Part shown: positions 12,195 through 45,627 of the stretch, one piece after another
How positions within the stretch are numbered: the stretch's first letter is position 1
How the letters are laid out: each line of letters starts with the position of its first letter
From: Anaerolineae bacterium
Lineage (GTDB): Bacteria > Chloroflexota > Anaerolineae > Aggregatilineales > J027
DNA length: 57,584 nt
Reading direction: 5' to 3'
Assembly: GCA_019913005.1 (NCBI GenBank)
Contig: JAIOHL010000291.1
Coordinates: 1 to 57,584 of the forward strand
Translations under genes and position numbers: made by a program
Notes under the pieces: generated by a model
Told to the model about the DNA's origin: nothing
The model's database searches: none
The model's input: only the letters and a program-made list of their open reading frames with translations

Positions 12195-13766
12195 ATGGAT
12201 TACCAGACACTTGAGAAGCAACTCTGGGAGGCTGCCGACCAATTACGCGCCAACTCTGAGCTAAAAGCCTCTGAATATTCTGTCCCGGTGTTGGGACTCA
12301 TTTTCCTGCGTTTTGCCGACCACAAATTTGGGCTGATGCAAAAACGGCTGGAAGGCACCGCCACCGGACGGCGTAGAATCAGCAAAACCGACTATCAAGC
12401 CGAGGGGGTGGTGTTTGTTCCCGACCTTGCCCGCTATGACTACCTGCTCGCCCTACCCAGCGGCACGGATTTAGGCAAGGCCATTGACACCGCGATGGAA
12501 GGCATCGAGCAGGAAAACGACGATCTGAAAGGTGTATTGCCCAAAAACTACACCAGCTTTGATAATCAAATCCTCTTGACCCTGCTCAAAAAATTCAATT
12601 TCTCGATGGCTGGACTCACCGGCGACGTATTCGGGAAAATCTACGAATACTTTCTCGGTAAATTTGCCATGACCGAAGGGCAAAAGGGTGGCGAATTCTT
12701 CACCCCTAGCTCCATCGTCAAACTGATTGTGGAAATCATCGAACCCTATCAAGGCCGTATTTTTGACCCGGCGTGCGGCTCTGGCGGCATGTTTGTTCAT
12801 AGCGCGGCTTTTGTGGAACGCCACCGCGCCAACAAACTGGGGATTAGCATTTTTGGGCAGGAACGGGTCAACGAAACCGTGCGGCTCTGCAAAATGAACC
12901 TTGCCGTGCATGGCCTATCCGGGCAAGTCACCCAAGCCAACACCTACTATGACGACGTGCATTCTGAATCCCGACCCTTCGACTTTGTGATGGCGAATCC
13001 CCCTTTCAACGTTAACGGGGTGGATAAAGAGCGCATCAAGGCCGATAAAGTGCGGTTTCCGTTGGGGATGCCCAAGATTGACAATGCCAATTACGTCTGG
13101 ATTCAGCTTTTCTATAGCGCCCTCAGCAAAAAAGGCCGGGCCGGGTTTGTCATGGCGAATTCCGCCAGCGATGCCCGCCATACCGAGCAGGACATCCGCC
13201 AAAAATTGATTGACGACGGCGTGGTCGATGTGATGATTGCCATCGGCTCCAATTTCTTCTATACCGTCACCCTGCCCTGTACGCTATGGTTTCTGGATAA
13301 GGGCAAACAAGGCACGGAGCGCCAAGACTGGGTGTTGTTCATTGATGCCCGCCAGATTTTCCAACAGGTTGACCGCGCCCATCGAGAATTTACCCCGGCC
13401 CAGTTGGAATTTATCGCCAATATCGTGCGGCTCTATCGCGGCGAAGACCCCGAATTTTATATCCCCGACGATGCCGAGGCCGACTACGCCACCAGCCAGC
13501 GCCTGATTGAAGAGGTTTTCCCAGAGGGGCGGTATCAAGACATTGCGGGGTTATGCAAGGTTGCCACCCGTGCCGAGATTGCCGCGCAGGGGTGGAGCTT
13601 GAATCCGGGGCGGTATGTAGGGGTAGCCAAGAATGGGCAGGATGAAGATTTTGATTTCATCGAGCATATGGAAGCACTGCATGAACGCTTGGAACTGCTT
13701 AATGCCGAGGCGAGGGTTTTGGAAGAGCGGATCGCTGAGAATATGCGGAAAATCTTGGGGGAATAA
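12195..13766 (+). CDS. hsdM: Type I restriction-modification DNA methyltransferase subunit
   Basis: This 523-residue protein begins with the HsdM N-terminal helical domain ([23 protein letters not shown]...[11 protein letters not shown]). It has the N6-adenine methyltransferase motif [11 protein letters not shown] (about 191-200) and the catalytic motif IV NPPF (267-270). With HsdS it methylates adenines in a bipartite target, protecting host DNA. With HsdS and HsdR it forms the restriction complex. Length is normal and no frame damage is visible. The C terminus has a coiled-coil-like helix ([23 protein letters not shown]) that probably docks on HsdS. It is the first gene of the hsdM-hsdS-hsdR operon. 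Confidence 0.97.
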
Positions 13767-13767
13767 T

Positions 13768-15024
13768 TTGTCAAAGAGTAGCCAACTTACCCTAAATGAT
13801 ATTTGCGAATTTATCGCAGATTGTCTTCACAAGACAGCCCCTATCCAAGAAACGGGTTATCCATCAATTAGAACGCCAAATATTGGCAGGGGAAGACTGA
13901 TACTAGAGAACGTGAATAGAGTATCAGAAGAAACTTACCTAGAATGGATACGAAGAGCCACACCTCAAGGCGGTGACTTAATCATCGCTAGGGAAGCACC
14001 TGTTGGCAATGTTGCAATAATTCCTGATGGTCTACAAGTATGTTTAGGCCAAAGGACGGTCTTGGCTAGGCCGGATAGAAACAAGGTTGAGCCTGATTAT
14101 CTAGTCTATCTCCTGCTAGGGGATGAAATTCAAGGCAAGTTTCAATCATACTCTGGGGGTGCGACTGTAGCACATCTAAATGTAAAGGATATACGTGATC
14201 TCGAATTACCTCCATTACCCTCCCGCGAAACACAGCGCAAGATTGCGGCGATACTGTCGGCGTATGATGACCTGATCGAAAACAACACCCAACGGATTCA
14301 GGCATTAGAAGCGGCGGCGCAGGCCCTCTACCGCGAATGGTTTGTCGAGTTTCGCTTTCCGGGCCATGAATCCGTCGCGTTTGTGCCGTCCGAGTTGGGG
14401 GATATTCCGGCGGGGTGGGAGATTGGGCCTGTTTCGGAATTCATCGAAATTAATCCGCGTGTTTCAGTGCACAAAGATAACGAATATCCGTTTGTGCCAA
14501 TGGCAAATTTATCGGAAAACTCAATGCTCATAACTGGCATTGAATACCGAGTAGGAAATAGTGGGGCAAAGTTCAAAAATAATGACACGTTATTTGCCAG
14601 AATTACCCCATGCCTTGAGAATGGCAAAACGGGCTTTGTCCAGTTCTTAGACTCAGAGGAAGCTGTTGCCACCGGGTCAACTGAATTTGTTGTGATGCGC
14701 TCAAAACATGTATGCCCTGAGTATGTATATTGCCTTGCCCGTTTACCAGAATTTAGGGAAGCAGCGGCAAAAAGTATGACCGGGGCGACAGGCAGACAAA
14801 GAGTCTCAAACAGTTTTTTCGATGAATTTCTGATTGTTCTACCTCAGAGAGATATGATTGCTTCATTCCGCGAGGCAACACTGCCTGTTTTTAAAGAAAT
14901 ACAGATATTAGCCCATAAAAATGCGGTTTTGAGAGAAGCTCGCGATTTGCTCTTGCCCCGCCTGATTTCTGGGGAGTTGGATGTAGCAAGGCTAGAGATT
15001 GAATTAGATATTGAGCCTTCATAA
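13768..15024 (+). CDS. hsdS: Type I restriction-modification specificity subunit
   Basis: HsdS carries two target recognition domains (about 1-140 and 205-350), each followed by a conserved helix. The central one reads LPPLPSRETQRKIAAILSAYDDLIENN and the distal one ends LREARDLLLPRLISGELDV. The first domain reads half of the recognition site, the second the other half. The open frame extends upstream to 13633, but that part overlaps hsdM. I choose the TTG at 13768, one base after the hsdM stop and preceded by a GGGGGA ribosome site, which gives a normal length of 418 residues. The TRDs are the variable part, so the target sequence cannot be predicted here. Confidence 0.92.
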   Translation: MSKSSQLTLNDICEFIADCLHKTAPIQETGYPSIRTPNIGRGRLILENVNRVSEETYLEWIRRATPQGGDLIIAREAPVGNVAIIPDGLQVCLGQRTVLARPDRNKVEPDYLVYLLLGDEIQGKFQSYSGGATVAHLNVKDIRDLELPPLPSRETQRKIAAILSAYDDLIENNTQRIQALEAAAQALYREWFVEFRFPGHESVAFVPSELGDIPAGWEIGPVSEFIEINPRVSVHKDNEYPFVPMANLSENSMLITGIEYRVGNSGAKFKNNDTLFARITPCLENGKTGFVQFLDSEEAVATGSTEFVVMRSKHVCPEYVYCLARLPEFREAAAKSMTGATGRQRVSNSFFDEFLIVLPQRDMIASFREATLPVFKEIQILAHKNAVLREARDLLLPRLISGELDVARLEIELDIEPS

Positions 15025-15043
15025 TGGATAAAAGGTCTACGAA

Positions 15044-18000
15044 ATGACAGGACATAATCCAGACGCGGAAGATAGCCTAGAACTCGCAACAATGGCCCTG
15101 TTAGGTGAATTGGGCTATGCAACCTTCAACGCCTTAGATGAGATTTGCGGCGTCAACAGCCCACTGGGACGGCAAACCCGCAACGAAGTGGTGCTGCTGC
15201 AATATCTCTGGCCTCAATTGGAATTCCTCAATCCCGATGTGCCTACCGAAGCCATTGAGCAGGGCATTCGAGAGTTAACCAGCGATAAAAGCATCATGCT
15301 GTCCGTCATGGCGAATCGGGAAATCTACCGCTGGCTGCGGGACGGGCTTAAGGTCAGGGTTCGGGATAGACGGGGGGAAATGAAAGATTTCACGCTGCGC
15401 GTCATAGATTGGGAGACGCCGGGGCAGAATCACTTTTTGGCGGTGCGGCAGCTTTGGATCGCGGATGTGTATGGCAACAAACGCCCGGATGTACTGTTGT
15501 TTGTCAATGGCCTGCCGCTGGTCATCCTTGAACTTAAAGCGCACTATCGCAAAGCGGATCGGGGGTTTCTGGATAACCTGCGGGATTACAAAGACACCAT
15601 CCCCCGGCTGTTTTGGTATAACGCCTTTATCATCGTCTCCAACGGCACAGACAGCCTGATGGGGAGTATGACGGCGGGTTTGGAACATTTTAGCCAATGG
15701 AAACGCATTAATTCCGAGGGCGAGGTGGGGGTGATTGCGCTGGAAACGATGCTGCGGGGGACGTGTGCTCCCACCCGGCTGCTGGATTTGGTCGAAAACT
15801 TCACCCTGTTTGATGAAACGCGGGGCGGGCTTAAAAAACTGATCGCCAAAAATCACCAGTATCTGGGGGTGAATAACGCGGTGGAGGCCGTGCGCAACAT
15901 TGAGGAAAACAGAGGCCGTCTGGGGGTCTTTTGGCACACACAGGGCAGCGGCAAAAGTTATTCGATGGTCTTTTTCACCCAGAAGGTGCAGCGCAAGATT
16001 CCGGGCAACTGGACGTTTCTGATTATCACGGACCGCGATGATTTGGACGATCAAATTTATGGCAATTTTGCGGGGACAGGCGCAGTAATGGAGTTAGAAG
16101 AGGATGCCCGCGCTCAGAAGGGGGAACATCTGCGGCAGCTTCTGCGTGAAGACCACCCCTACATTTTCACCTTAGTGCAGAAATTCCACACCCGCGACGG
16201 CGAATCTTTCCCCCTACTCTCCGAACGGGATGACATCATCGTCATTACTGATGAAGCCCATCGCACGCAGTATGATACTTTTGCGGCTAATCTGCGCCTT
16301 GCCCTACCCAACGCGGCCTTTATCGGGTTTACGGGTACACCGCTCATGGCAGGTGAACAAAAAACGCGGCAGGTCTTTGGGAATTATGTCAGCGTCTACA
16401 ACTTTAAACAGGCGATTGAAGACGAAGCTACTGTGCCGCTGTGGTATGAAAACCGCATCCCGGAGCTACAACTGAGCAATCAGGACTTAAACGAAGGGAT
16501 TGAAAACCTGCTGGATGAAGCCTTGTTAGACGAAGACACCGAGCGGCGGATTGAACGGGAATTTGCGCGTGAATATCACCTTATCACCCGCGATGATCGG
16601 TTAGAGGAAATCGCCCACGATATGGTGGAGCATTACAGCGTGCGGGGATTTGAGGGCCGCGACTACTACAGCAAAGCAATGGTGGTGTGTATAGATAAAC
16701 TCACCGCTGTTCGCATGTATGACAAGGTGCAGGCGCACTGGGGGGACAAACTAAAGGCGCTCCGCAAACAACGGGCCAAGACCAAATCGGAATTAGAGCA
16801 TCTCCAACTGGATGCCCAGATTCAATTTATGGAAACCACCGACATGGCCGTCGTGATTTCCAAAGCACAGGGGGAGATTGCCGACTTTGACGCCAAAGGC
16901 CTCGATATTCGCCCGCATCGTCAGCGGATGGAAGCGGAGGATTTGGAGACGGCATTTAAAAAGCCCGACCATCCCTTCCGGGTGGTGTTTGTGTGTGCGA
17001 TGTGGATGACGGGGTTTGATGCCCCGGCTTGCGCCACGATCTACCTTGATAAACCGATGCGGAACCATACGCTGATGCAAACCATCGCCCGCGCTAACCG
17101 GGTCTTTGAGACCAAACCCAACGGCTTGGTGGTGGATTACATCGGGGTCTTCCGAGAACTGCAAAAAGCCCTCGCCATCTATGGCACATCCTCCGGTGAC
17201 GACGAGTTGCCTGCACAGGATAAGGGGGTGCTGATTAAACAACTGGCGGCCTTGATTGCAGATTTAAAGCGGTTCTGTGGGGGCATTGGGGTGAATTTGG
17301 ATGGCATTAGCCCGTTACGTGGTTTTGAGCGGATACGGGCCATTGAAGACGCGGTGAATGCCATCTTGCGCGATGAGGCGACCAAAGCCCATTATCTGGA
17401 ACTGGCCCATGCCGTCTATAAAACCTATAAATCCATTTTGCCGGATCGGGACGCTGGCAAATTTGAGGCTATCAGCCGTTTGGCCGGGGTGATTGTTGAA
17501 AAAATCCGCTCCCTTAATCCAGACGACACGGATATTGCGGGGCTGGTGGAGAGTGTCGAAGAATTGTTGGATGAGTCTATCACGACCAAATATGTGATTG
17601 ATAAACCCATGAATGAGCAGCTTGATCTGAGCCGGATTGATTTTGAGGCATTGGCGGCGCAATTTAAGACCGGGTGGAAAAATATCGAGGCGGAAAAACT
17701 TAAGGTGGCGATTGGCCGTCAACTGAGGCAGATGATTCGTCGTAACCAGACGCGGCTGGACTTTCAGGCGAAGTTTCAGCAGATGATTGATGAATACAAC
17801 ACCAGCACCGATAAACAAACGATTGATGCGCTGTATAACCAGCTATTGGTGTTTGCACAGGCACTCAACGCCGAGGAACAGCGCGGGATTAGTGAAAACC
17901 TGACGGAAGAAGAACTGGCGATTTTTGATCTGATTATGCGGCCACAATTGGAATTGACGCCGGATGAAACGCAGACGATTAAACAGACGGTGCGGGAGAT

Positions 18001-18217
18001 GCTGCAAAAACTTAAGGCTGAAAAGCTGGTGCTGGATTGGCGCAAAAAGCAGCAATCCCTAGCGGATGTCAAAAAGGTGATTGAGATCGAACTGGATCAT
18101 GGCCTGCCCCATTCGATCCCGCAAGAGGTCTACGATCAAAAGTGCGCTGTCGTCTATCAGCATATCTATGATTCCTACGTGGACGGCAGCCATAGTGTGT
18201 ATTCCGGGGCGGCGTAA
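15044..18217 (+). CDS. hsdR: Type I restriction endonuclease / translocase subunit
   Basis: HsdR has 1057 residues, the expected length. The N-terminal nuclease shows RPDVLLFVNG followed by ILELK (near 163), matching the PD-(D/E)xK core. The SF2 motor has Walker A TQGSGKS (about 301-307), the DEAH box TDEAHRTQYD (near 403), GFTGTPL, and MTGFDAP in the second RecA-like lobe. The remaining C terminus is helical and should bind HsdM. The enzyme pumps unmodified DNA and cuts at a distance. It starts 19 bases after hsdS with an AAAAGG ribosome site. The gene appears intact, so the system is probably active. Confidence 0.97.
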   Translation: MTGHNPDAEDSLELATMALLGELGYATFNALDEICGVNSPLGRQTRNEVVLLQYLWPQLEFLNPDVPTEAIEQGIRELTSDKSIMLSVMANREIYRWLRDGLKVRVRDRRGEMKDFTLRVIDWETPGQNHFLAVRQLWIADVYGNKRPDVLLFVNGLPLVILELKAHYRKADRGFLDNLRDYKDTIPRLFWYNAFIIVSNGTDSLMGSMTAGLEHFSQWKRINSEGEVGVIALETMLRGTCAPTRLLDLVENFTLFDETRGGLKKLIAKNHQYLGVNNAVEAVRNIEENRGRLGVFWHTQGSGKSYSMVFFTQKVQRKIPGNWTFLIITDRDDLDDQIYGNFAGTGAVMELEEDARAQKGEHLRQLLREDHPYIFTLVQKFHTRDGESFPLLSERDDIIVITDEAHRTQYDTFAANLRLALPNAAFIGFTGTPLMAGEQKTRQVFGNYVSVYNFKQAIEDEATVPLWYENRIPELQLSNQDLNEGIENLLDEALLDEDTERRIEREFAREYHLITRDDRLEEIAHDMVEHYSVRGFEGRDYYSKAMVVCIDKLTAVRMYDKVQAHWGDKLKALRKQRAKTKSELEHLQLDAQIQFMETTDMAVVISKAQGEIADFDAKGLDIRPHRQRMEAEDLETAFKKPDHPFRVVFVCAMWMTGFDAPACATIYLDKPMRNHTLMQTIARANRVFETKPNGLVVDYIGVFRELQKALAIYGTSSGDDELPAQDKGVLIKQLAALIADLKRFCGGIGVNLDGISPLRGFERIRAIEDAVNAILRDEATKAHYLELAHAVYKTYKSILPDRDAGKFEAISRLAGVIVEKIRSLNPDDTDIAGLVESVEELLDESITTKYVIDKPMNEQLDLSRIDFEALAAQFKTGWKNIEAEKLKVAIGRQLRQMIRRNQTRLDFQAKFQQMIDEYNTSTDKQTIDALYNQLLVFAQALNAEEQRGISENLTEEELAIFDLIMRPQLELTPDETQTIKQTVREMLQKLKAEKLVLDWRKKQQSLADVKKVIEIELDHGLPHSIPQEVYDQKCAVVYQHIYDSYVDGSHSVYSGAA

Positions 18218-37002: not shown

Positions 37003-37866
37003 ATGACCGAACTCATGTTAGGTGGCGCGTATCGTTTGACCCTCGCCAAACGCGGGAGTTCAGCCGGTTACGCCGCCGGATCACAAGGCACGGCCCTCGC
37101 CAACGGCTCTACCTCACATTCGTGGAGTTTGGATGGCTGTCGCCTCAATGAAATGAATCGCGCCACCCCCGGCACCCTGACATGGCAAGCGGGGGACAAG
37201 GATGTGGGCTATCGCACCTATGGTCGCCGTCGCATTAACGCCATGAAACTCACCAGCGACCTGCTGGATCGGGAGTTGGCGGTAGCGATTGTCAATACAG
37301 CGGTGGATGCCACCAGCAACAGCCGCTATCCCCAGTACAGCCTCGACACCGCCATCATCAATGCGCCGGATATGATCGCCATCCTGACCCAAGAAGCCAT
37401 GCTGCGTGGGGCCACTCAGACCAAGTATCTGCACTGGCTCTTCCCCTTTGTCAAAGGCGATGTGTCCTTCACCAATCCGACCTTCCAGCAGAAGGTCAGC
37501 ATTGAATTTAACTTCGACATCCCGGCGGATGTGGGCCGTAATATCTTTGGGCAGTTGTTCCCGACGGCGATGGCCCTGCCGGATGATGGGCTGCTGGGTC
37601 ATTACTTTATGGAATCCGACTATCCCATTGCCCTGACCGCCTTTCGAGGCGACGGCAATGAAGACACCTTCACCACCCAGTACCTGCCCGTCTCGAATGA
37701 AGTCACCTCAGGGGCGGCGTACAACTGGAGTTTTGTGAACGGTCAGAACACCCAGCCGACCAGTGTCAGCACCACCACCGGGGATGTGGTTTATACCGCG
37801 CCACCTGCCGCTGGTGCATGGGGGGTGATCTTGTACGGCACGCGCTATCGCCTGCCCGCCGCCTAA
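37003..37866 (+). CDS. Major tail (tube) protein
   Basis: This 287-residue protein starts after a strong AAGGAG site in a 20-base gap. It is beta-rich with an Ig-like or variable C terminus (about 205-287; TTQYLPVSNEVTSGAAYNWSFVNGQ). Its place between the completion proteins and the tail chaperone fits the tube protein of a long non-contractile tail. High-expression signals (good ribosome site) agree. No sheath gene is seen, so the particle is probably a siphovirus. Confidence 0.65.
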   Translation: MTELMLGGAYRLTLAKRGSSAGYAAGSQGTALANGSTSHSWSLDGCRLNEMNRATPGTLTWQAGDKDVGYRTYGRRRINAMKLTSDLLDRELAVAIVNTAVDATSNSRYPQYSLDTAIINAPDMIAILTQEAMLRGATQTKYLHWLFPFVKGDVSFTNPTFQQKVSIEFNFDIPADVGRNIFGQLFPTAMALPDDGLLGHYFMESDYPIALTAFRGDGNEDTFTTQYLPVSNEVTSGAAYNWSFVNGQNTQPTSVSTTTGDVVYTAPPAAGAWGVILYGTRYRLPAA

Positions 37867-37929: not shown

Positions 37930-38208
37930 ATGCCTAGTTTTGAACTCACCCTTAACGATCCACGTGTAGGCCATCGCACCCCTGAAGGTCGGGTGTGGCC
38001 GGAGACGGACATCTTAGGCCAACCTGTGGATCGCGCACAGGGCGGCTTGACCACCCGCGCTTTAGGTAATGGTTATTTTGTGGTCATCCCCCCCGGCAAG
38101 GACGGCGACATTCTGGTGACGCTTGTCGCGGAAACGCCAGCCGCGCCGCCGATGGTGCCGCTCAATGAACCACTAGTGTATGAGGACGAGACCGATGCCG
38201 CAGGTTAA
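37930..38208 (+). CDS. Small tail-region protein of unknown function
   Basis: This 92-residue protein starts at the ATG at 37930, 8 bases after GGAGG; the upstream in-frame ATG at 37915 lies too close to be the start. It overlaps the chaperone gene by 14 bases. Beta-rich, Pro-rich sequence. No family is recognised. Confidence 0.6.
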   Translation: MPSFELTLNDPRVGHRTPEGRVWPETDILGQPVDRAQGGLTTRALGNGYFVVIPPGKDGDILVTLVAETPAAPPMVPLNEPLVYEDETDAAG

Positions 38209-38710
38209 TGGGAAAGCCAAACTCAGTTTGGATGCCCTGCATACGGATAACGTCACGGTGTTGGAGGGATTAGTCGTGTTTCGCTTCCGCGCCAATTCCT
38301 TTCAAAACCGCCGTGCAGTGGATCGTCTCGAAGCAGCGCTGCGCGAAACGATCACCGACGAGGCCGAGCTGCAGCACGTGTCCAACTTCGCCTTTCTCAT
38401 CACCATGACCGAAGCCATTGAGTTTGGTGAGGTGCAAGGCTCACTGGCGGCTTTTAGGGACTGGTGGCAGAGCCACAGCGAAGACGACTTGCTGGCTTCG
38501 TTTCAAGGCTATCTAGCACAGGAGCTGCGGGTGCTCAACCTATGGGCCGATGCCCACAACGAGCGCCTCGAGGCCTTGATCCCCTCCGAACGCCGTCCGC
38601 GTTTCATGCGGACAAAAGAGGAACTGGAGGCACTGGATGATCCGGCCAGCCCTTTGCCCGAACCCGCCGAGCATGGCACGAGCGCATCATCCGGTGGGCC
38701 GAAGAGCTAA
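38195..38710 (+). CDS. Tail assembly chaperone, short (G-like) product
   Basis: This 171-residue protein starts at the ATG at 38195 (GAGGACGAG upstream), inside the end of the previous gene. It is helical and acidic, with FRDWWQSHSEDDLLASFQGYLAQELRVLNLWADAHNERLEAL, and sits just before the tape measure gene, the fixed place of tail assembly chaperones. Codons 153-154 are the slippery CCT TTG. Ribosomes that do not slip end at 38710 and make this form. Confidence 0.75.
   Translation: MPQVNGKAKLSLDALHTDNVTVLEGLVVFRFRANSFQNRRAVDRLEAALRETITDEAELQHVSNFAFLITMTEAIEFGEVQGSLAAFRDWWQSHSEDDLLASFQGYLAQELRVLNLWADAHNERLEALIPSERRPRFMRTKEELEALDDPASPLPEPAEHGTSASSGGPKS
38650..38656 (+). other. Programmed -1 ribosomal frameshift site (C CCT TTG)
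   Basis: The heptamer C CCT TTG follows the X XXY YYZ rule exactly in the zero frame of the chaperone gene. After slipping back one base, the ribosome enters a frame that is open from 38641 to 39027 and has no start codon in the first 60 codons. Lambda G/GT and many other phages use such a site at this locus. Confidence 0.8.
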
Positions 38711-39027
38711 ATAAACGCGAGGAGCACAGCGATGCGCCACCCACCAAACCACCCGGTACGACCCCCGACGGCCAGCTGGATTTTTGGTGGCCTGCCGAGG
38801 ATGAGCTGGTTAAGGCCGGCATGGACTTATGGCAGCGCCGGGGCTGGGTCGGTGAAGGGCCGTATCCCGATGAGGTCGAGCGCTATATGGCGGAACAACA
38901 ATGGTTTTTTTCATTACATACCTTTAAAGGGGTCATGGATTGGGAGCGCTGGAGTCGCACGGGCCATACCAGCCCCCGCCCGCCGCGCCACAGTCCGTAT
39001 GACCCATCTGGACGCGAGTGGTTCTAA
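38656..39027 (+). CDS. Tail assembly chaperone, frameshifted (GT-like) extension
   Basis: This 123-residue frame is reached by -1 slippage at 38650-38656, giving a fusion of about 277 residues. It reads ARTRRAWHERIIRWAEELNK, then QLDFWWPAEDELVKAGMDLWQ and AEQQWFFSLHTFKGVMDWERW, a Trp-rich sequence that looks protein-like. The only ATG in this frame is at 38821, which would discard the first 55 codons. The T part of such chaperones recruits the tail tube protein to the tape measure. It ends one base before the tape measure ATG overlaps (TAATG). Confidence 0.75.
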   Translation, partial: ARTRRAWHERIIRWAEELNKREEHSDAPPTKPPGTTPDGQLDFWWPAEDELVKAGMDLWQRRGWVGEGPYPDEVERYMAEQQWFFSLHTFKGVMDWERWSRTGHTSPRPPRHSPYDPSGREWF

Positions 39028-41678
39028 TGTCGGATGATCTGAATCCTGAAATCCGCATCAGTGTCCTTGCCGACACCGAACGGGGCCAGCAAAGTGTGGC
39101 CGCCATCCAACGTTTGGTCGCTGGCGCACGCGCTGAGGTCGAAAAGTTCGCCCAAGCGGGTGGGTTGGGTCGCTTGGCAAAGGACGCGGGCATTCTCGAT
39201 GTTGCCAATGACCTCATTGATGAAACTGCCGCCACCCTGCATTCGGCCACGCGCCGGGCTGAAACGTTGCAACAGGCGATTGGGGCGGTGGGTACGGAAT
39301 CCTCCCAGTTTGACCGCTTGAATGGTCGTTTACAAGCCACCCAAACGGAAATCTTAGATGCCGTCGCCTACCTCCAGCAAATCCCGTTGGCCCTCCAAGA
39401 CGGCGCGGCTCAAGCCGAGTTGCTCAACCGCACACTGGCCGCCACGCCCAGTGCTCCCACCGCTTCCGGCGGGACAGCCCCGCGTGTCACCCCACGCCGT
39501 AGCGGGGGTGGGACAGCGGATACACTCGGCGCGATTGAACGACCCTTTGCCCAAATTGCGGGCACCGCCAGTTTCTTGGGTCTGGCCCAAGGCAGTGCTG
39601 TCACCCAATCCCTACGCGGCGTCAGTGAGATCTCCGGCTCGATTGAGGCTTTGGGCCGGATGCGCGAGACGATGGCCGTCTTGAGGGAAACCACTGGGTC
39701 GTCGACGTTGGCGCTGGGTGGACTCGGAGTCGCACTGCTGGCTTTAGGGCCTGCGATCAATGCGCTCAAAGATAAAGCGCATGAAGTCACCGGGCCGTTT
39801 CGGGATTTGGTGGAGGAATTTGACCGCGAACGCGAGTTACTGGAGTACCGTAAACAAATCTCCGGCCAGACCCAAGACCAGATCGCGTCTGAGATTCGCA
39901 CCCAAGAGCAGTTAGTCGCCATGTATGCGCTGCAAATTGGGCAAGCCAAGACCGCGATTGACGCCTCCGAAGACTTGGGGGATCGGCTCATTGGGGACAT
40001 GGGCCTTGTCTCGGACGCCCTCACCCAAGTCTTTGCCCTCGCCGGGTATGATGCGGATGTGCTCCAAGACAAACTGCCCGAACTGCAAAAGAACTTGGAG
40101 ACCGCCCGCCAGAAGCTCGAGGCCTTAAACGATCCCCTCATCCAAATTTCACTCGCCGCCCAACAAGCGCAAGAAGCCTACTTCCAACAATTGGATTTGG
40201 AGAAGCAGCGGCTTCAACTGATCGAATCCGGCACACCCGAACAACTTGCCAATCTGCGCACCACTGCCGAGCAGGAACGCCAAGCCATTTACGACACCTT
40301 TGCCAACTTTGGGGATGCTATTCAAGACCAAGTGATAACAGCGGCACGTGCGGCGGGACTTGAAGAAGAGCTACAGACGCTTTTCCGCAACTCGGCGGCG
40401 TTTGGTGGGGACATTCCCACCCAAACCAATGCCTATGCTGAATTAGCACAAGTGCTGGGGGTCGAGCTGCCTGAATCGGTATTTGCCGCGCTCAACACCT
40501 TTAACGAACAAATTGAGCGCATGAACGAATTGGATGAGGTGTTAAATTTTCTCGACACCGGAGACATCCAAGACGCCATTGCTACCCGCGATAAACAACA
40601 ACAGCAACTTCATGCCCTGAACGACTCCACCAAAGAGGTCATTAAAAGCGAGGCGTCACATGTTGCCGCTGTCAATGCACTAGCCACTGCTAACGAAGCC
40701 GCCATTGAAGCGGAAACTAAACATGCCCAAGCTTTGCTCGATGACGCGGCTAAGACCTCCCAGTCCATTCAGCAACTCGAAACGGCCCGCGCCGAGCAAC
40801 TCGCCCAACAGCGTCAAGCCGATGCTGAAGCTGCCGTCATTGCGGGTTTTCGGTCTCAGATTGAAGCAGCCAAAGAAGCTGAAGCCATTCAAGCCCGTAA
40901 CGACAAAATCACGGCGCTTCAACAGGAAGCCCACACCAGCGAACTAACCGCCCTGCAAAAACACGCAGCCGCCAAAGCCAAAACACAGGCCGACTTTGAT
41001 CTCCAGCAAAAACGGCGCGAAGAGGACTTGGCCGAAGATTTGCGTCAGGCCGAAGAGGAGCGGGATGTCAAAGCCTACCTGCGCCTTGAACGGCAGGGTG
41101 AAAAAGAACTCAACCGGGCCAAGGAAGACCACGACTTGCGGTCTAAAGAGCAGGAGACGGCTCTGCGGGAGCAGATTCGTGAGATTCGCCAGAACGCGAG
41201 TGACCGCATCCGGGTCGAACGCGACAGTGGACAGCGACGGCTCACGCAGTCGCAGCTTTTGGAACGCAAACTGGCGGATTTCCAAAATGACCTCGCCCGG
41301 CAGCATCAACTCGAACAGCGCCAGATTGAAGCACAGGGCTATCAGGAACGCATTACCCAACTGCGTCTCCACATGCGACAAGTCACCCAAGAACTGCTGA
41401 CCGGGTTGGTCACGCCCCTGCGCGGGGGTTTAGGGGTATTGGTGGGAACCAATAACACCCTCGCGCCACTACCCGTCGGCGCTGGGAGTGCCGCCACTAG
41501 CGGGTTACGCACAGGTGGAGCGAGTCTCGCCGTCACGGTCTCGATTGGGCAGCAGAATATTGGACGGTTTGCTCAAGCCGAAGACATTGCACGGGTTGAA
41601 CGCCAAAACCAACAGCTCGCCCGAACTGTTCTGACGGCGGTGCAGCGTTCGCGTGCCAATACCGGGGGATGGTACTAA
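39027..41678 (+). CDS. Tape measure protein
   Basis: This 883-residue protein has long helical, coiled-coil-rich stretches (about 245-780), many Gln/Ala/Glu-rich repeats and a central hydrophobic segment (about 225-250; STLALGGLGVALLALGPAINAL). It begins at an ATG overlapping the chaperone-extension stop (TAATG). Tape measure length sets tail length; at about 1.5 angstrom per residue this suggests a tail near 130 nm. No lytic transglycosylase or peptidase domain is visible. Its position after G/GT is canonical. Confidence 0.88.
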   Translation: MSDDLNPEIRISVLADTERGQQSVAAIQRLVAGARAEVEKFAQAGGLGRLAKDAGILDVANDLIDETAATLHSATRRAETLQQAIGAVGTESSQFDRLNGRLQATQTEILDAVAYLQQIPLALQDGAAQAELLNRTLAATPSAPTASGGTAPRVTPRRSGGGTADTLGAIERPFAQIAGTASFLGLAQGSAVTQSLRGVSEISGSIEALGRMRETMAVLRETTGSSTLALGGLGVALLALGPAINALKDKAHEVTGPFRDLVEEFDRERELLEYRKQISGQTQDQIASEIRTQEQLVAMYALQIGQAKTAIDASEDLGDRLIGDMGLVSDALTQVFALAGYDADVLQDKLPELQKNLETARQKLEALNDPLIQISLAAQQAQEAYFQQLDLEKQRLQLIESGTPEQLANLRTTAEQERQAIYDTFANFGDAIQDQVITAARAAGLEEELQTLFRNSAAFGGDIPTQTNAYAELAQVLGVELPESVFAALNTFNEQIERMNELDEVLNFLDTGDIQDAIATRDKQQQQLHALNDSTKEVIKSEASHVAAVNALATANEAAIEAETKHAQALLDDAAKTSQSIQQLETARAEQLAQQRQADAEAAVIAGFRSQIEAAKEAEAIQARNDKITALQQEAHTSELTALQKHAAAKAKTQADFDLQQKRREEDLAEDLRQAEEERDVKAYLRLERQGEKELNRAKEDHDLRSKEQETALREQIREIRQNASDRIRVERDSGQRRLTQSQLLERKLADFQNDLARQHQLEQRQIEAQGYQERITQLRLHMRQVTQELLTGLVTPLRGGLGVLVGTNNTLAPLPVGAGSAATSGLRTGGASLAVTVSIGQQNIGRFAQAEDIARVERQNQQLARTVLTAVQRSRANTGGWY

Positions 41679-42130
41679 TGCCTACTTTACGCCTGACCGA
41701 CCATCGCCTTGCTGCTGGGATTCAGACCGTGACGTATATGACCACCCATGAAACCCGTATCCGACTCTTCCCCCTGCAACCTGATCAAGGTACGGGTGCA
41801 CCCGCGTGGTCGGCCCCAGACTATCACTTGGGCATGGTGTCGCCCCGTTATATGCGCTACCGATCCGATGCCAACTTCAATGAAATTGGCGAAGGCCGCC
41901 TCTATTGGGATCCGGTCTTTGGGCATTGGACAAACGACATGCTGGCCTATGTCAAGACGACTTTCCCGCACAATGGCCCCGTCACCGTCATGGCCTATGA
42001 CCACGAAGATTTGCCGCTGTTCTTCACCGCCATTCTGCTGCACCCCCTTGAGGAGGAGCATATGCAGTGGACACCGACGGGTTGGATGGAAGTCAAGTTA
42101 CGGTTTCGTAGAGGGGTGAGGATCACCTGA
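41678..42130 (+). CDS. Probable distal tail protein
   Basis: This 150-residue protein begins at an ATG overlapping the tape measure stop (TAATG). Its beta-rich sequence (TLRLTDHRLAAGIQTVTYMTTHETRIRLFP, later YRSDANFNEIGEGRLYWDPVFGHW) and place after the tape measure fit a distal tail protein, which links the tube to the tip. A diagnostic motif is lacking. Confidence 0.5.
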   Translation: MPTLRLTDHRLAAGIQTVTYMTTHETRIRLFPLQPDQGTGAPAWSAPDYHLGMVSPRYMRYRSDANFNEIGEGRLYWDPVFGHWTNDMLAYVKTTFPHNGPVTVMAYDHEDLPLFFTAILLHPLEEEHMQWTPTGWMEVKLRFRRGVRIT

Positions 42131-45100
42131 TGCCGTCTGCTGCGCTTACCACCACTGAATTAGCTGCCTTGCGCGGCTCAGGCCATGCCACCGATGCGTG
42201 GCTGAGTGTCGTGCCCGCCACGACCGTCGCTACGGCTCGCATCAACCAGACGACCTTCACCAACCCGGTCACCCAGCTCACGGTAGATAACACATCGGCT
42301 GCGTGGTTGACCTATGTGCGCAAAGGCATGACGGTCTGGATTGGCACGACGGCGGGCGCACGCGACATCGGGGTCTACCGCGTGCGCGAAAATCCCAGCG
42401 CGACAATTTTGCCCATTGCCGAAATGAGTACAGGTGATCCGGGGCTGCTGGCGCTGTCCACCTTACGACCACTGGTGAACGATGCGTATATCACGGTGAA
42501 GCATAGTGACGATATTTGGAGCATCCTACCCGTCATTGCCGAAGGTGAGTTCTTAAAAGATGCTGACGATCCCTACACCAACCAGAACGAACTGGGCGGC
42601 CAGATCCCCGGCATTAACAATATTGGGCCACACCGTCGTGGCCGGGTAGCTGGGGGCAGCATTTCCTTCACCTTTGCCGCCGATGTGCACTGGTTCGAGA
42701 CCATCGGCACCGCCAGTTGCACGTGGACCTTCCAAAACGGCACACCGTCCACCGCGACGGGCATCGGCCCACATACGGTCAGTTTCCCCGCCGGGACCCA
42801 TGAGGTGGTGTGTGTCGCCACGAGTGCCAACGGCGGAATGGCCCGTGCCCGACGGCGTGTTTTTGCCCATGACTTTGCCACCAATCCACCCTATTCAGTC
42901 AAAGTCCTCAGTGATCGCACCACCCAGCAAGGTCGCCGTCTGTCGCTGGAAGTGATTGGGGCTGACCTGACTGACACCGACCTGCAAACGGGCACAATGG
43001 TCATGTTCTGGGAGGAGTTGTTTTTTGAAGGTGGGGCGACACTGGCGAGTGCCACGACGGATTGTGTGGGGTGGATAGAAAGTGTCTCCGGCGGGGGTGA
43101 GTCGGGCGTGCCCGTCTACCGCGTCGAGGTGATCCAAGCCCTGCACCGCCTCGAACAGATACGTGGCTTCAGCCAAGTGCTCACCGCGACGGCGAATCCA
43201 TCGAACTGGCAGGAAGTCAGTCCGACCCTGTGTCATTTTAACTTCTATGTCTTTTATTTGTTGTATTGGCATACCACCCTGCTGCAACTCTTTGACTATG
43301 CCGCCCAAAGTTTGGTGGAAGTGGTCATGAACACATGGGCCAACGATCCGGGAGATTGGTACACGGCCATCAACCGACTTGGCTCGTTTGTGTCGGCGGA
43401 ACTGGGGCAAGCCAGTGACGGCACCTTATATATACGCCGCCAGCCGTCCCTGATGAACAATACGGAACGGAATTTACTCACCGAGCGGGTTACCCTCGCG
43501 CTCAATGCCACCGCCTGTGATTTGCTGGTCATCCCCGACATGGAACACCGTCAATTCCCCGCCGTCGGTCAAACGCAGGGGTTTGCTTTTATGTACAACG
43601 TCGTCACGGGGCAAAAGACGGGTCTTAAATCCTACGCCCCCGGTGAAGTACCCGGTCAAGGCGGACGCACCGAACCAATGCCCGATCAATGGGTCGCCCA
43701 TCCCAGTCATTTGGATTTGCTGGTCGCCAACTACCATGCCATGGTCAACAACCCCTACCCGCACGTGACCGTGCAATTGACGCGCTCCAATGCCGTCAAT
43801 GCCCTGCTGACTGCTCCGGCGGAGCTGTACTGGGTGGTTTTGGACGTGGATGCCGAGCATTGGCCGGAGGGCACGGCCTTTCATGCGCGGTGTGTCGTCG
43901 AAGATATCTCGATAGTGTGGAACGAAGACGGCACCAAAGACACGACCTTAAACCTTGTGCCGGAAACGAATGGTAACTATGCCCCCGCTCAAGCCATGCC
44001 GACCACACTGGATAACGAGACTGACCCGACGACGGTGCAGTTCCCGCAAGTGGATGACCTCACCGGCGAAATCCAAATCCCCTATGACAACTTACTGGGC
44101 TTGCCCCCTGTCAGTACACCCCTCGTCACCGAGGAAGAACAGATCAACGGCGTCCTCTTTGCTTGGAGTCCCCATGCGGTTGGGGTGGCCTATAACCCCT
44201 CCGCGCCCGCCTTTCTCCCCTTCTGGTATCCACCAGCAGGCGAGGCCATTACCTCCCTCGTCTTTGACCGCCGTTCACCCCGTTTCACCACCGATAGGCG
44301 GCGTGGGGCGCTGCGGATGGGCATTCTCACCGACAGCGCCTTTTATTATTGTGCCAACGCGCTGGCGGGCAGTCCGGTGGTCGAACAACAGCAGCTGATC
44401 AGTACCTTTTTGCTGTTACGCAATAACAACGGTGTACCCCATGCCTTTGGCGCGTATGGCGTCAATGTCGTGGCCGATATGGGGGATGTGGAAATTACCT
44501 TTGATGCGGGGGGTTATGAAGGGTACACCGTCACCCAAGGCGTCGGGCCAACGCTTGGGGGACATTCCGGCAACGGCCTGCTGCACGCGGTAGATACCGG
44601 AGGCAACCGCGTCATCACCGTCGAGATTGACCTCGGCAGTAACCTCACCTTAGACTCCATTGCCATCTGGGTGTATGTGGATCATACCGCCATCAGTTAT
44701 ACCGCCATTGGCTACAGCGATGGAGTGGGTGGTACGCAGACCGGGAACTTCGGTGGCGATGAAGCCATCACCGACTCCGTATGGACACCCCTCACGCACA
44801 GTGGCTTAAACTGGCCCAATACCCGTTACCTGCGGCTGCATCTGCAACGCGCCTCCTTTGATGCCAATGACCTGCGACTGGATGAGATCACCCTCAACGG
44901 CAACTTCACGGCGCAAGGTGCGGCGGTGGCCTATTTGGAGGACACGGGCAACACCCTGACCATTACCGCAGTCGGCAGTGGTATCCCGTCCACAGGCGGG
45001 GCCGATCTGGATGATTTTGATCGGGGCTGCTGGCTCGCCAGCAATGGCCGCCACCTCTATTTCACCACCAGCTACACCGGGGCATTTACCCGGCTGGCGA

Positions 45101-45627
45101 CGGTGGATGCGGGATCGGCCACGATTAACCTCGTGCGTATCCCCAAACGCCGACTCACCAGCACGACCTACAACGATGACCCCAACGCCCTGCATTTTAT
45201 CTATGGCATGAATGGCCCCGATGGCAGTGCTCGCACACTGGTACGCGGGGTGTTGAATCGCGGCGCAAATAGTGTGAACTTAATCAACATCACCCCCGTC
45301 GTGGCAGGCGTCACCTATCGACCCGTTGGGCCGGAGTCACTGGAAACCTATGCCGGAGACGCACGGGTCGTGCTGCTGATGGCCGTCCCCGTCGCGGGTG
45401 GGTCGCCCGTGCGCCTGCGTTCCGTTGATGCGGGCGACACGTGGGCACTGGCGGGTTCAGCCCATGACTTTAGCTTCGTGCGCTGGACCGGGCGCACGCG
45501 GGCATGGCTGGCCGGGCCGGATGGCATTGGTTTTACCCCGGATCGCGGTGTGAGTTTAGAGAATCGGGATGGGGATTATGAATTGCAGCTTGAACCCTTC
45601 CCGCTGATTGGAGCCGAAGCCGTATGA
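42130..45627 (+). CDS. Large tail-tip protein with PKD-like and discoidin-like domains
   Basis: This 1165-residue protein overlaps the previous stop (TGATG). The N-terminal part (1-180) has SWLSVVPATTVATARINQT and repeated beta strands. A PKD/Ig-like domain with paired Cys lies at about 187-246 (CTWTFQNGTPS...AGTHEVVCVATSANG). The middle (about 260-630) may form the tail hub or associated structure. A discoidin (F5/8 type C)-like domain lies at about 786-920 (VITVEIDLGSNLTLDSIAIWVYVDH and YLRLHLQRASF). The rest looks like a propeller. It probably forms the tip and touches surface glycans. Domain calls are by eye. Confidence 0.7.
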   Translation: MPSAALTTTELAALRGSGHATDAWLSVVPATTVATARINQTTFTNPVTQLTVDNTSAAWLTYVRKGMTVWIGTTAGARDIGVYRVRENPSATILPIAEMSTGDPGLLALSTLRPLVNDAYITVKHSDDIWSILPVIAEGEFLKDADDPYTNQNELGGQIPGINNIGPHRRGRVAGGSISFTFAADVHWFETIGTASCTWTFQNGTPSTATGIGPHTVSFPAGTHEVVCVATSANGGMARARRRVFAHDFATNPPYSVKVLSDRTTQQGRRLSLEVIGADLTDTDLQTGTMVMFWEELFFEGGATLASATTDCVGWIESVSGGGESGVPVYRVEVIQALHRLEQIRGFSQVLTATANPSNWQEVSPTLCHFNFYVFYLLYWHTTLLQLFDYAAQSLVEVVMNTWANDPGDWYTAINRLGSFVSAELGQASDGTLYIRRQPSLMNNTERNLLTERVTLALNATACDLLVIPDMEHRQFPAVGQTQGFAFMYNVVTGQKTGLKSYAPGEVPGQGGRTEPMPDQWVAHPSHLDLLVANYHAMVNNPYPHVTVQLTRSNAVNALLTAPAELYWVVLDVDAEHWPEGTAFHARCVVEDISIVWNEDGTKDTTLNLVPETNGNYAPAQAMPTTLDNETDPTTVQFPQVDDLTGEIQIPYDNLLGLPPVSTPLVTEEEQINGVLFAWSPHAVGVAYNPSAPAFLPFWYPPAGEAITSLVFDRRSPRFTTDRRRGALRMGILTDSAFYYCANALAGSPVVEQQQLISTFLLLRNNNGVPHAFGAYGVNVVADMGDVEITFDAGGYEGYTVTQGVGPTLGGHSGNGLLHAVDTGGNRVITVEIDLGSNLTLDSIAIWVYVDHTAISYTAIGYSDGVGGTQTGNFGGDEAITDSVWTPLTHSGLNWPNTRYLRLHLQRASFDANDLRLDEITLNGNFTAQGAAVAYLEDTGNTLTITAVGSGIPSTGGADLDDFDRGCWLASNGRHLYFTTSYTGAFTRLATVDAGSATINLVRIPKRRLTSTTYNDDPNALHFIYGMNGPDGSARTLVRGVLNRGANSVNLINITPVVAGVTYRPVGPESLETYAGDARVVLLMAVPVAGGSPVRLRSVDAGDTWALAGSAHDFSFVRWTGRTRAWLAGPDGIGFTPDRGVSLENRDGDYELQLEPFPLIGAEAV

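Follow-up and report, generated by a model that had tools for sequence, protein, structure and literature searches.

The heptamer of the lambda G/GT pair is GGGAAAG, and the lambda T extension ends at the tape measure gene, as it does in the 57,584-nt stretch of DNA from an Anaerolineae bacterium analysed here (contig JAIOHL010000291.1, positions 1 to 57,584; the whole stretch is referred to as the window). The locus described below resembles lambda gpG/gpGT in having two overlapping frames before the tape measure gene, a -1 shift (predicted for the window) near the 3' end of G, and a second frame that is entered by the shift (PMC5009743); unlike lambda, it carries the heptamer CCCTTT[G/A], and neither of its proteins matches a named phage family. 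According to the same review, the tail chaperones of different phages show low similarity to each other, and the ratio for lambda is 30:1, so that a low slippage rate would suit a chaperone role. Tail frameshifts are further treated in PMC10885494 and PMC3711429.

Two viruses share head genes with the window. The Curtobacterium phage Nonagon (PQ868950.1) displays the same overall gene order and a related capsid (26% identity), and is annotated in the order terminase, portal, protease, head fiber, capsid, minor tail protein, connectors and major tail protein, followed by two tail assembly chaperones and then the tape measure. Unlike the window, Nonagon has its chaperones annotated as two individual genes and carries a minor tail protein gene after the capsid gene; at E <= 5, neither G nor T of the window matched the Nonagon chaperones. 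The Methanoculleus virus L4768/Blf4 has a related portal (27%, 1e-40) and capsid (36%), as well as a protease-like and a small head protein. Its gp22 gene ends in an in-phase A_AAA_AAC (L071:13081-13087), from which the -1 frame stays open across the annotated gp23 as far as the tape measure start; gp23 probably represents the end part of a frameshift product that escaped annotation in this archaeal virus. It differs from the window in its heptamer and in the annotation of gp22 and gp23 as two hypothetical genes; the word "frameshift" does not occur in the main text of the Blf4 paper (PMC8540584), and its proteins are not similar beyond chance to G and T of the window (best E 0.1). The parallel, which amounts to one sequence (L4768 and Blf4, the only two records found, have the same gp22 protein), lends support to the idea that, in this lineage, the position ahead of the tape measure gene may be a frameshift slot, occupied by a changeable heptamer.

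The cassette in the window is comprised, in this order, of terminase, portal, protease, capsid, small genes, a tail protein, two frames (G and T) and the tape measure, with the capsid matching Phage_capsid_4 (1.2e-37) and the terminase matching TerL_nuclease (3.7e-14). G and T lie between the putative major tail and tape measure genes, which were named by position and length (Table 1). We consider it very likely that G and T form a tail assembly chaperone of the G/GT type, produced through programmed -1 ribosomal frameshifting. The -1 frame of the window is open from 38641 onward and overlaps G by 70 bases. The original prediction had described a correctly phased heptamer at 38650-38656, a -1 frame open for 123 codons and a Trp-rich extension ending at the tape measure start; each of these features was found as described. 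The heptamer reads AGC CCT TTG in the G frame, the 123 codons follow the slip, the extension has 10 Trp in the 124 residues counted from 38653, and the last base of the T stop is also the first base of the ATG (39027-39029) of the next long ORF.

Table 1. Features of the predicted frameshift region in the window and of the parallel region in Methanoculleus virus L4768.
Feature	Coordinates	Strand	Remarks
Probable major tail protein	37003..37866	+	Named by position
Small gene, 97 aa	37915..38208	+	Overlaps the G start
G-type ORF, zero frame	38195..38710	+	171 aa; ATG 38195, stop TAA 38708-38710
Predicted G-T fusion coding region	38195..39027	+	277 aa (154+123), inferred product
TGA closing the -1 frame	38638..38640	+	9 nt upstream of the slip site
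Slippery heptamer C_CCT_TTG	38650..38656	+	X_XXY_YYZ phase; tRNA-Pro CCT to CCC, tRNA-Leu TTG to TTT
T-type extension, -1 frame	38656..39027	+	123 codons and stop TAA 39025-39027
Possible hairpin, unsupported as stimulator	38663..38698	+	Begins 6 nt past the heptamer
First -1-frame ATG, possible extra internal start	38821..38823	+	Kept in 3/3 members; AAGG five bases before
Probable tape measure protein	39027..41678	+	By position and length; its ATG and the T stop overlap by one base (TAATG)
L4768 gp22, probable frameshift region	L071:12734-13347 (NC_074642.1 13007-13620)		

Searching the window's own genome at the DNA level revealed a second related cassette on a different contig (C146), and searching the family (10 genomes) at the protein level revealed a third, G004, in the Chloroflexi MAG CFX5 (QMIT01000017.1), which belongs to the same genus as the window's genome. 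Based on the phage genes found on bacterial contigs, all three cassettes are presumably prophages. The 20 window ORFs compared were matched in the same order in G004 (20 out of 20) and in C146 (17 out of 20, two of the three missing ones being expected past the end of the C146 contig). The cassettes at window positions 27750-48395 and on G000:C146 are related but distinct prophage cassettes within one assembled genome, and may coexist or reflect mixed strains.

Further members are scarce. Counting the window's own genome in each case, G was detected in two genomes out of 154 in the order, and its profile likewise in two out of 396 in the class; T occurs in two of the family's 10 genomes, and the tail protein in three of those 396. 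Scanning genome_contigs with the tail protein yielded two loci, G004 and G001 (the third genome with the tail protein), the chaperone region of the latter being out of sight because its contig ends inside the tail protein gene. No further relatives were obtained from viral_contigs using G or T, with profiles of the tail protein and capsid, or among named phages using G or the tail protein.

Within this comparison of three members, which belong to one genus and two of which come from one genome, the sequence AGCCCTTT at 38648-38655, an 8-base run ending inside the heptamer, is invariant in all members, against a pS of 0.46-0.71 for the preceding part of the G frame (38195-38649). The window and G004 share the heptamer CCCTTTG, whereas C146 has CCCTTTA, so that the slip-relevant CCCTTT is kept while the last base is variable; the alignment of relatives around the site, which had been proposed as a check, is consequently in favor of the original prediction. 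The preceding stop codon of the -1 frame lies directly at the heptamer or shortly ahead of it in all members: a TGA 9 nt upstream in the window and C146, and a TAG touching it (0 nt) in G004. The start of G and its protein are kept in the two relatives (78% and 82% identity), and their T extensions are 81% and 85% identical to that of the window. The stop of G shifts from 38708 in the window to 38726 (window numbering) in both relatives, and the junction between the T stop and the tape measure start is TAATG in the window and TGATG in both relatives.

Selection was followed by frame using Nei-Gojobori counts on the three pairs. The G frame up to the slip displays dN/dS values of 0.06-0.10. Between the slip and 38820, the -1 frame is free of stops and has dN/dS values of 0.05, 0.12 and 0.29, against 2.5, 2.0 and 1.7 for the zero frame; for the dual-coding stretch alone (38657-38710, 17 codons) the contrast is weaker, with 0.24-0.45 in the -1 frame and 1.2-3.1 in the zero frame. 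Before the slip, most variable columns fall on third codon positions of G (33, 17 and 93 for the three positions), and after it on third positions of the -1 frame (31/48 up to 38820 and 32/49 beyond), the phase skew within 38657-38727 alone not being significant (5, 12 and 6; p 0.15). A change-point scan of all three members, which was given no information on the heptamer, found the best point for the change from zero-frame to -1-frame phase at 38664 (2-lnL range, 38645-38667), the gain in lnL being 39.6 with free phase probabilities, or 77 with probabilities set by hand. The pairwise ranges were 38627-38667 for window-C146, 38648-38664 for C146-G004, and wider, 38633-38709, for window-G004. 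The low dN/dS up to 38820, together with the phase switch, identifies T as a selected protein from the slip site onward.

The heptamer itself is less decisive. The overlap holds a single XXXYYYZ in each of the three members, namely the CCCTTT[G/A] heptamer. Bare CCCTTTG is not enriched in the window (9 found versus 10.3 expected), and in-phase XXXYYYZ motifs occur at 18 of the 7197 codon positions of 19 cassette ORFs (G being included only up to 38649), none of them being CCCTTTN. The probability of an in-phase XXXYYYZ arising by chance at any of the overlap's 22 phase positions is about 0.054, and with a chance of roughly 5% the position of the heptamer alone is mild evidence. On the sequence data, the main weight for a frameshift is carried by the conservation in relatives and the switch in substitution phase, rather than by the position of the heptamer. 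Within the library searched, a literature search for CCCTTTG with frameshifting or slippery site returned a match on the West Nile virus reading frame only, and one for Chloroflexi phage frameshift or tape measure a match on cave pools only; for Chloroflexi prophages and anammox there was nothing on tail frameshifting among the matches listed.

We infer that slippage occurs at this site, that its rate is probably low, and that the products serve as chaperones. The majority of ribosomes would read G to its TAA, while a minority would slip back one base at C_CCU_UUG, with tRNA-Pro on CCU and tRNA-Leu on UUG; these tRNAs would re-pair with CCC and UUU, and reading in the -1 frame would then yield the fusion ending at the tape measure gene. 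The host encodes tRNA-Pro with the anticodons GGG, UGG and CGG, and its tRNA-Leu set includes UAA and CAA. Given tRNA-Pro(GGG), the slip from CCU to CCC could turn a G-U third pair into a Watson-Crick G-C pair, and tRNA-Leu would retain two pairs on UUU. When all 64 heptamers were measured in E. coli, 61 were shift-prone with a strong pseudoknot (PMC4066793), and CCCTTTG, which is absent from the three reported failures, can be counted as shift-prone by elimination. As A-site UUG and UUA are reported in the same study to shift less well than UUY, CCCTTTG would be expected to be a weak or moderate shifter when no stimulator acts. If the lambda model applies, the tape measure protein would be coated by many copies of G and few of G-T, which would also recruit the major tail protein.

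No stimulator was identified among the candidates considered. When the 61 or 81 nt following the heptamer were folded, the result was no better than for shuffled sequence in the three members (z-scores for the 61-nt folds of -0.71 in the window, 0.71 in G004 and 1.57 in C146), and no SD-like element was seen by eye at a fixed distance upstream of the heptamer. The hairpin listed in Table 1 is not supported as a stimulator: four of its seven outer pairs are lost in one relative, and 5 of its 12 pairs are lost in at least one relative, with no covariation. Its pairing is kept in 83% of cells versus 22-50% when slid, the hairpin itself having been taken from the window.

The shift could in principle occur by slippage of RNA polymerase, or by slippage of a single tRNA at or near the site, instead of by tandem slippage. 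The range of the phase switch is indeed wider than the heptamer and contains the tetramers C_CCU and U_UUG; however, homopolymers at the site are no longer than 3, and the entire CCCTTT is invariant, a need of tandem but not of single-tRNA slippage. The best tetramer is reported to lie about 10-fold below the best heptamer in E. coli (PMC4066793). We regard these routes as very improbable and tandem slippage as the preferred reading.

The proposal that T is a separate protein, translated without a frameshift from ATG 38821 or from a non-standard start upstream, draws on the conservation of this ATG in all three members with AAGG at a short distance before it. It is nevertheless very improbable, since purifying selection acts in the -1 frame on the 56 codons that separate the slip from 38821, and a start at 38821 fails to explain T as a whole because these selected codons lie upstream of it. 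As the original prediction had stated, no ATG, GTG or TTG occurs in the -1 frame of the window before 38821; the ATG present at 38776 in both relatives is CTG in the window and has no good ribosome site by eye, so an own start with a ribosome site before 38821, which had been named as evidence that would count against a frameshift, was not found. The stop at or just before the heptamer in all members also argues against independent translation of T. An additional short product of 68 aa from ATG 38821 is possible next to the frameshift product. That one gene was recently broken in two by an indel, or looks so through misassembly, a scenario in which the fused reading of both frames would occupy one operon slot, is extremely improbable, given the same arrangement in three sequences from two genome assemblies, the 196 and 185 columns at which the relatives depart from the window, and the selection of each frame on its own side of the site.

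Programmed tandem slippage being the preferred reading, we turn to the identity of the products. No named family was found in Pfam or PHROGs for G, T, the tail protein or the tape measure, the best PHROGs match being an unnamed family (E 0.0068, for the G of the window only); an NCBIfam scan of G yielded no named match, and G and T had no solved-structure match among PDB sequences, with one chance-level row for T (E 0.7). The AlphaFold models, with a mean pLDDT of 47 for G and 52 for T, were too poor for a fold search, and a Foldseek search with the G model gave none of its 156 matches at E <= 0.001, as expected for a pLDDT of 47. As neither protein has a sequence or fold match, the chaperone label derives from gene order plus the frameshift itself. 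For the tail assembly chaperone frameshift originally proposed, phase, open frame and conservation are therefore upheld, with the name chaperone being assigned by gene order and having no family match. In the tail region, a long ORF at window positions 42130-45627 shows a sub-threshold match to a PKD domain (E 0.0057).

The comparison supports well that the frameshift is very probably real, and of the ordinary lambda G/GT sort. The locus provides a further case, from prophages of uncultured Chloroflexi, of G/GT frameshifting in proteins without a named relative in the scans made, and indicates that the layout is recognisable from substitution phase even after similarity to known chaperones is gone. 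It also implies a correction to annotation, as a gene caller depending on start codons would miss the extension or trim it to the 68 aa from ATG 38821. A more speculative and rather doubtful extension is that the slip rate at CCCTTT[G/A] sets the amount of fusion and, via coupling, that of the tape measure protein; such coupling is proposed because the T stop and the tape measure start share a base and the ribosome site of the tape measure gene looks weak by eye. If true, one leaky codon pair would fix the chaperone : fusion : ruler ratio.

Two further observations concern other parts of the window and its genome. A tRNA-like gene with the anticodon CUA, called tRNA-Pyl by ARAGORN, is located at G000:C333:49915-49986 (L068); no pyrrolysyl-tRNA ligase was found over the cut-off in the window's genome, and the gene could be a UAG suppressor or a decayed tRNA. 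In the window, three ORFs at 12195-18217 resemble what we take to be a type I restriction-modification set, with methylase, specificity and restriction subunits.
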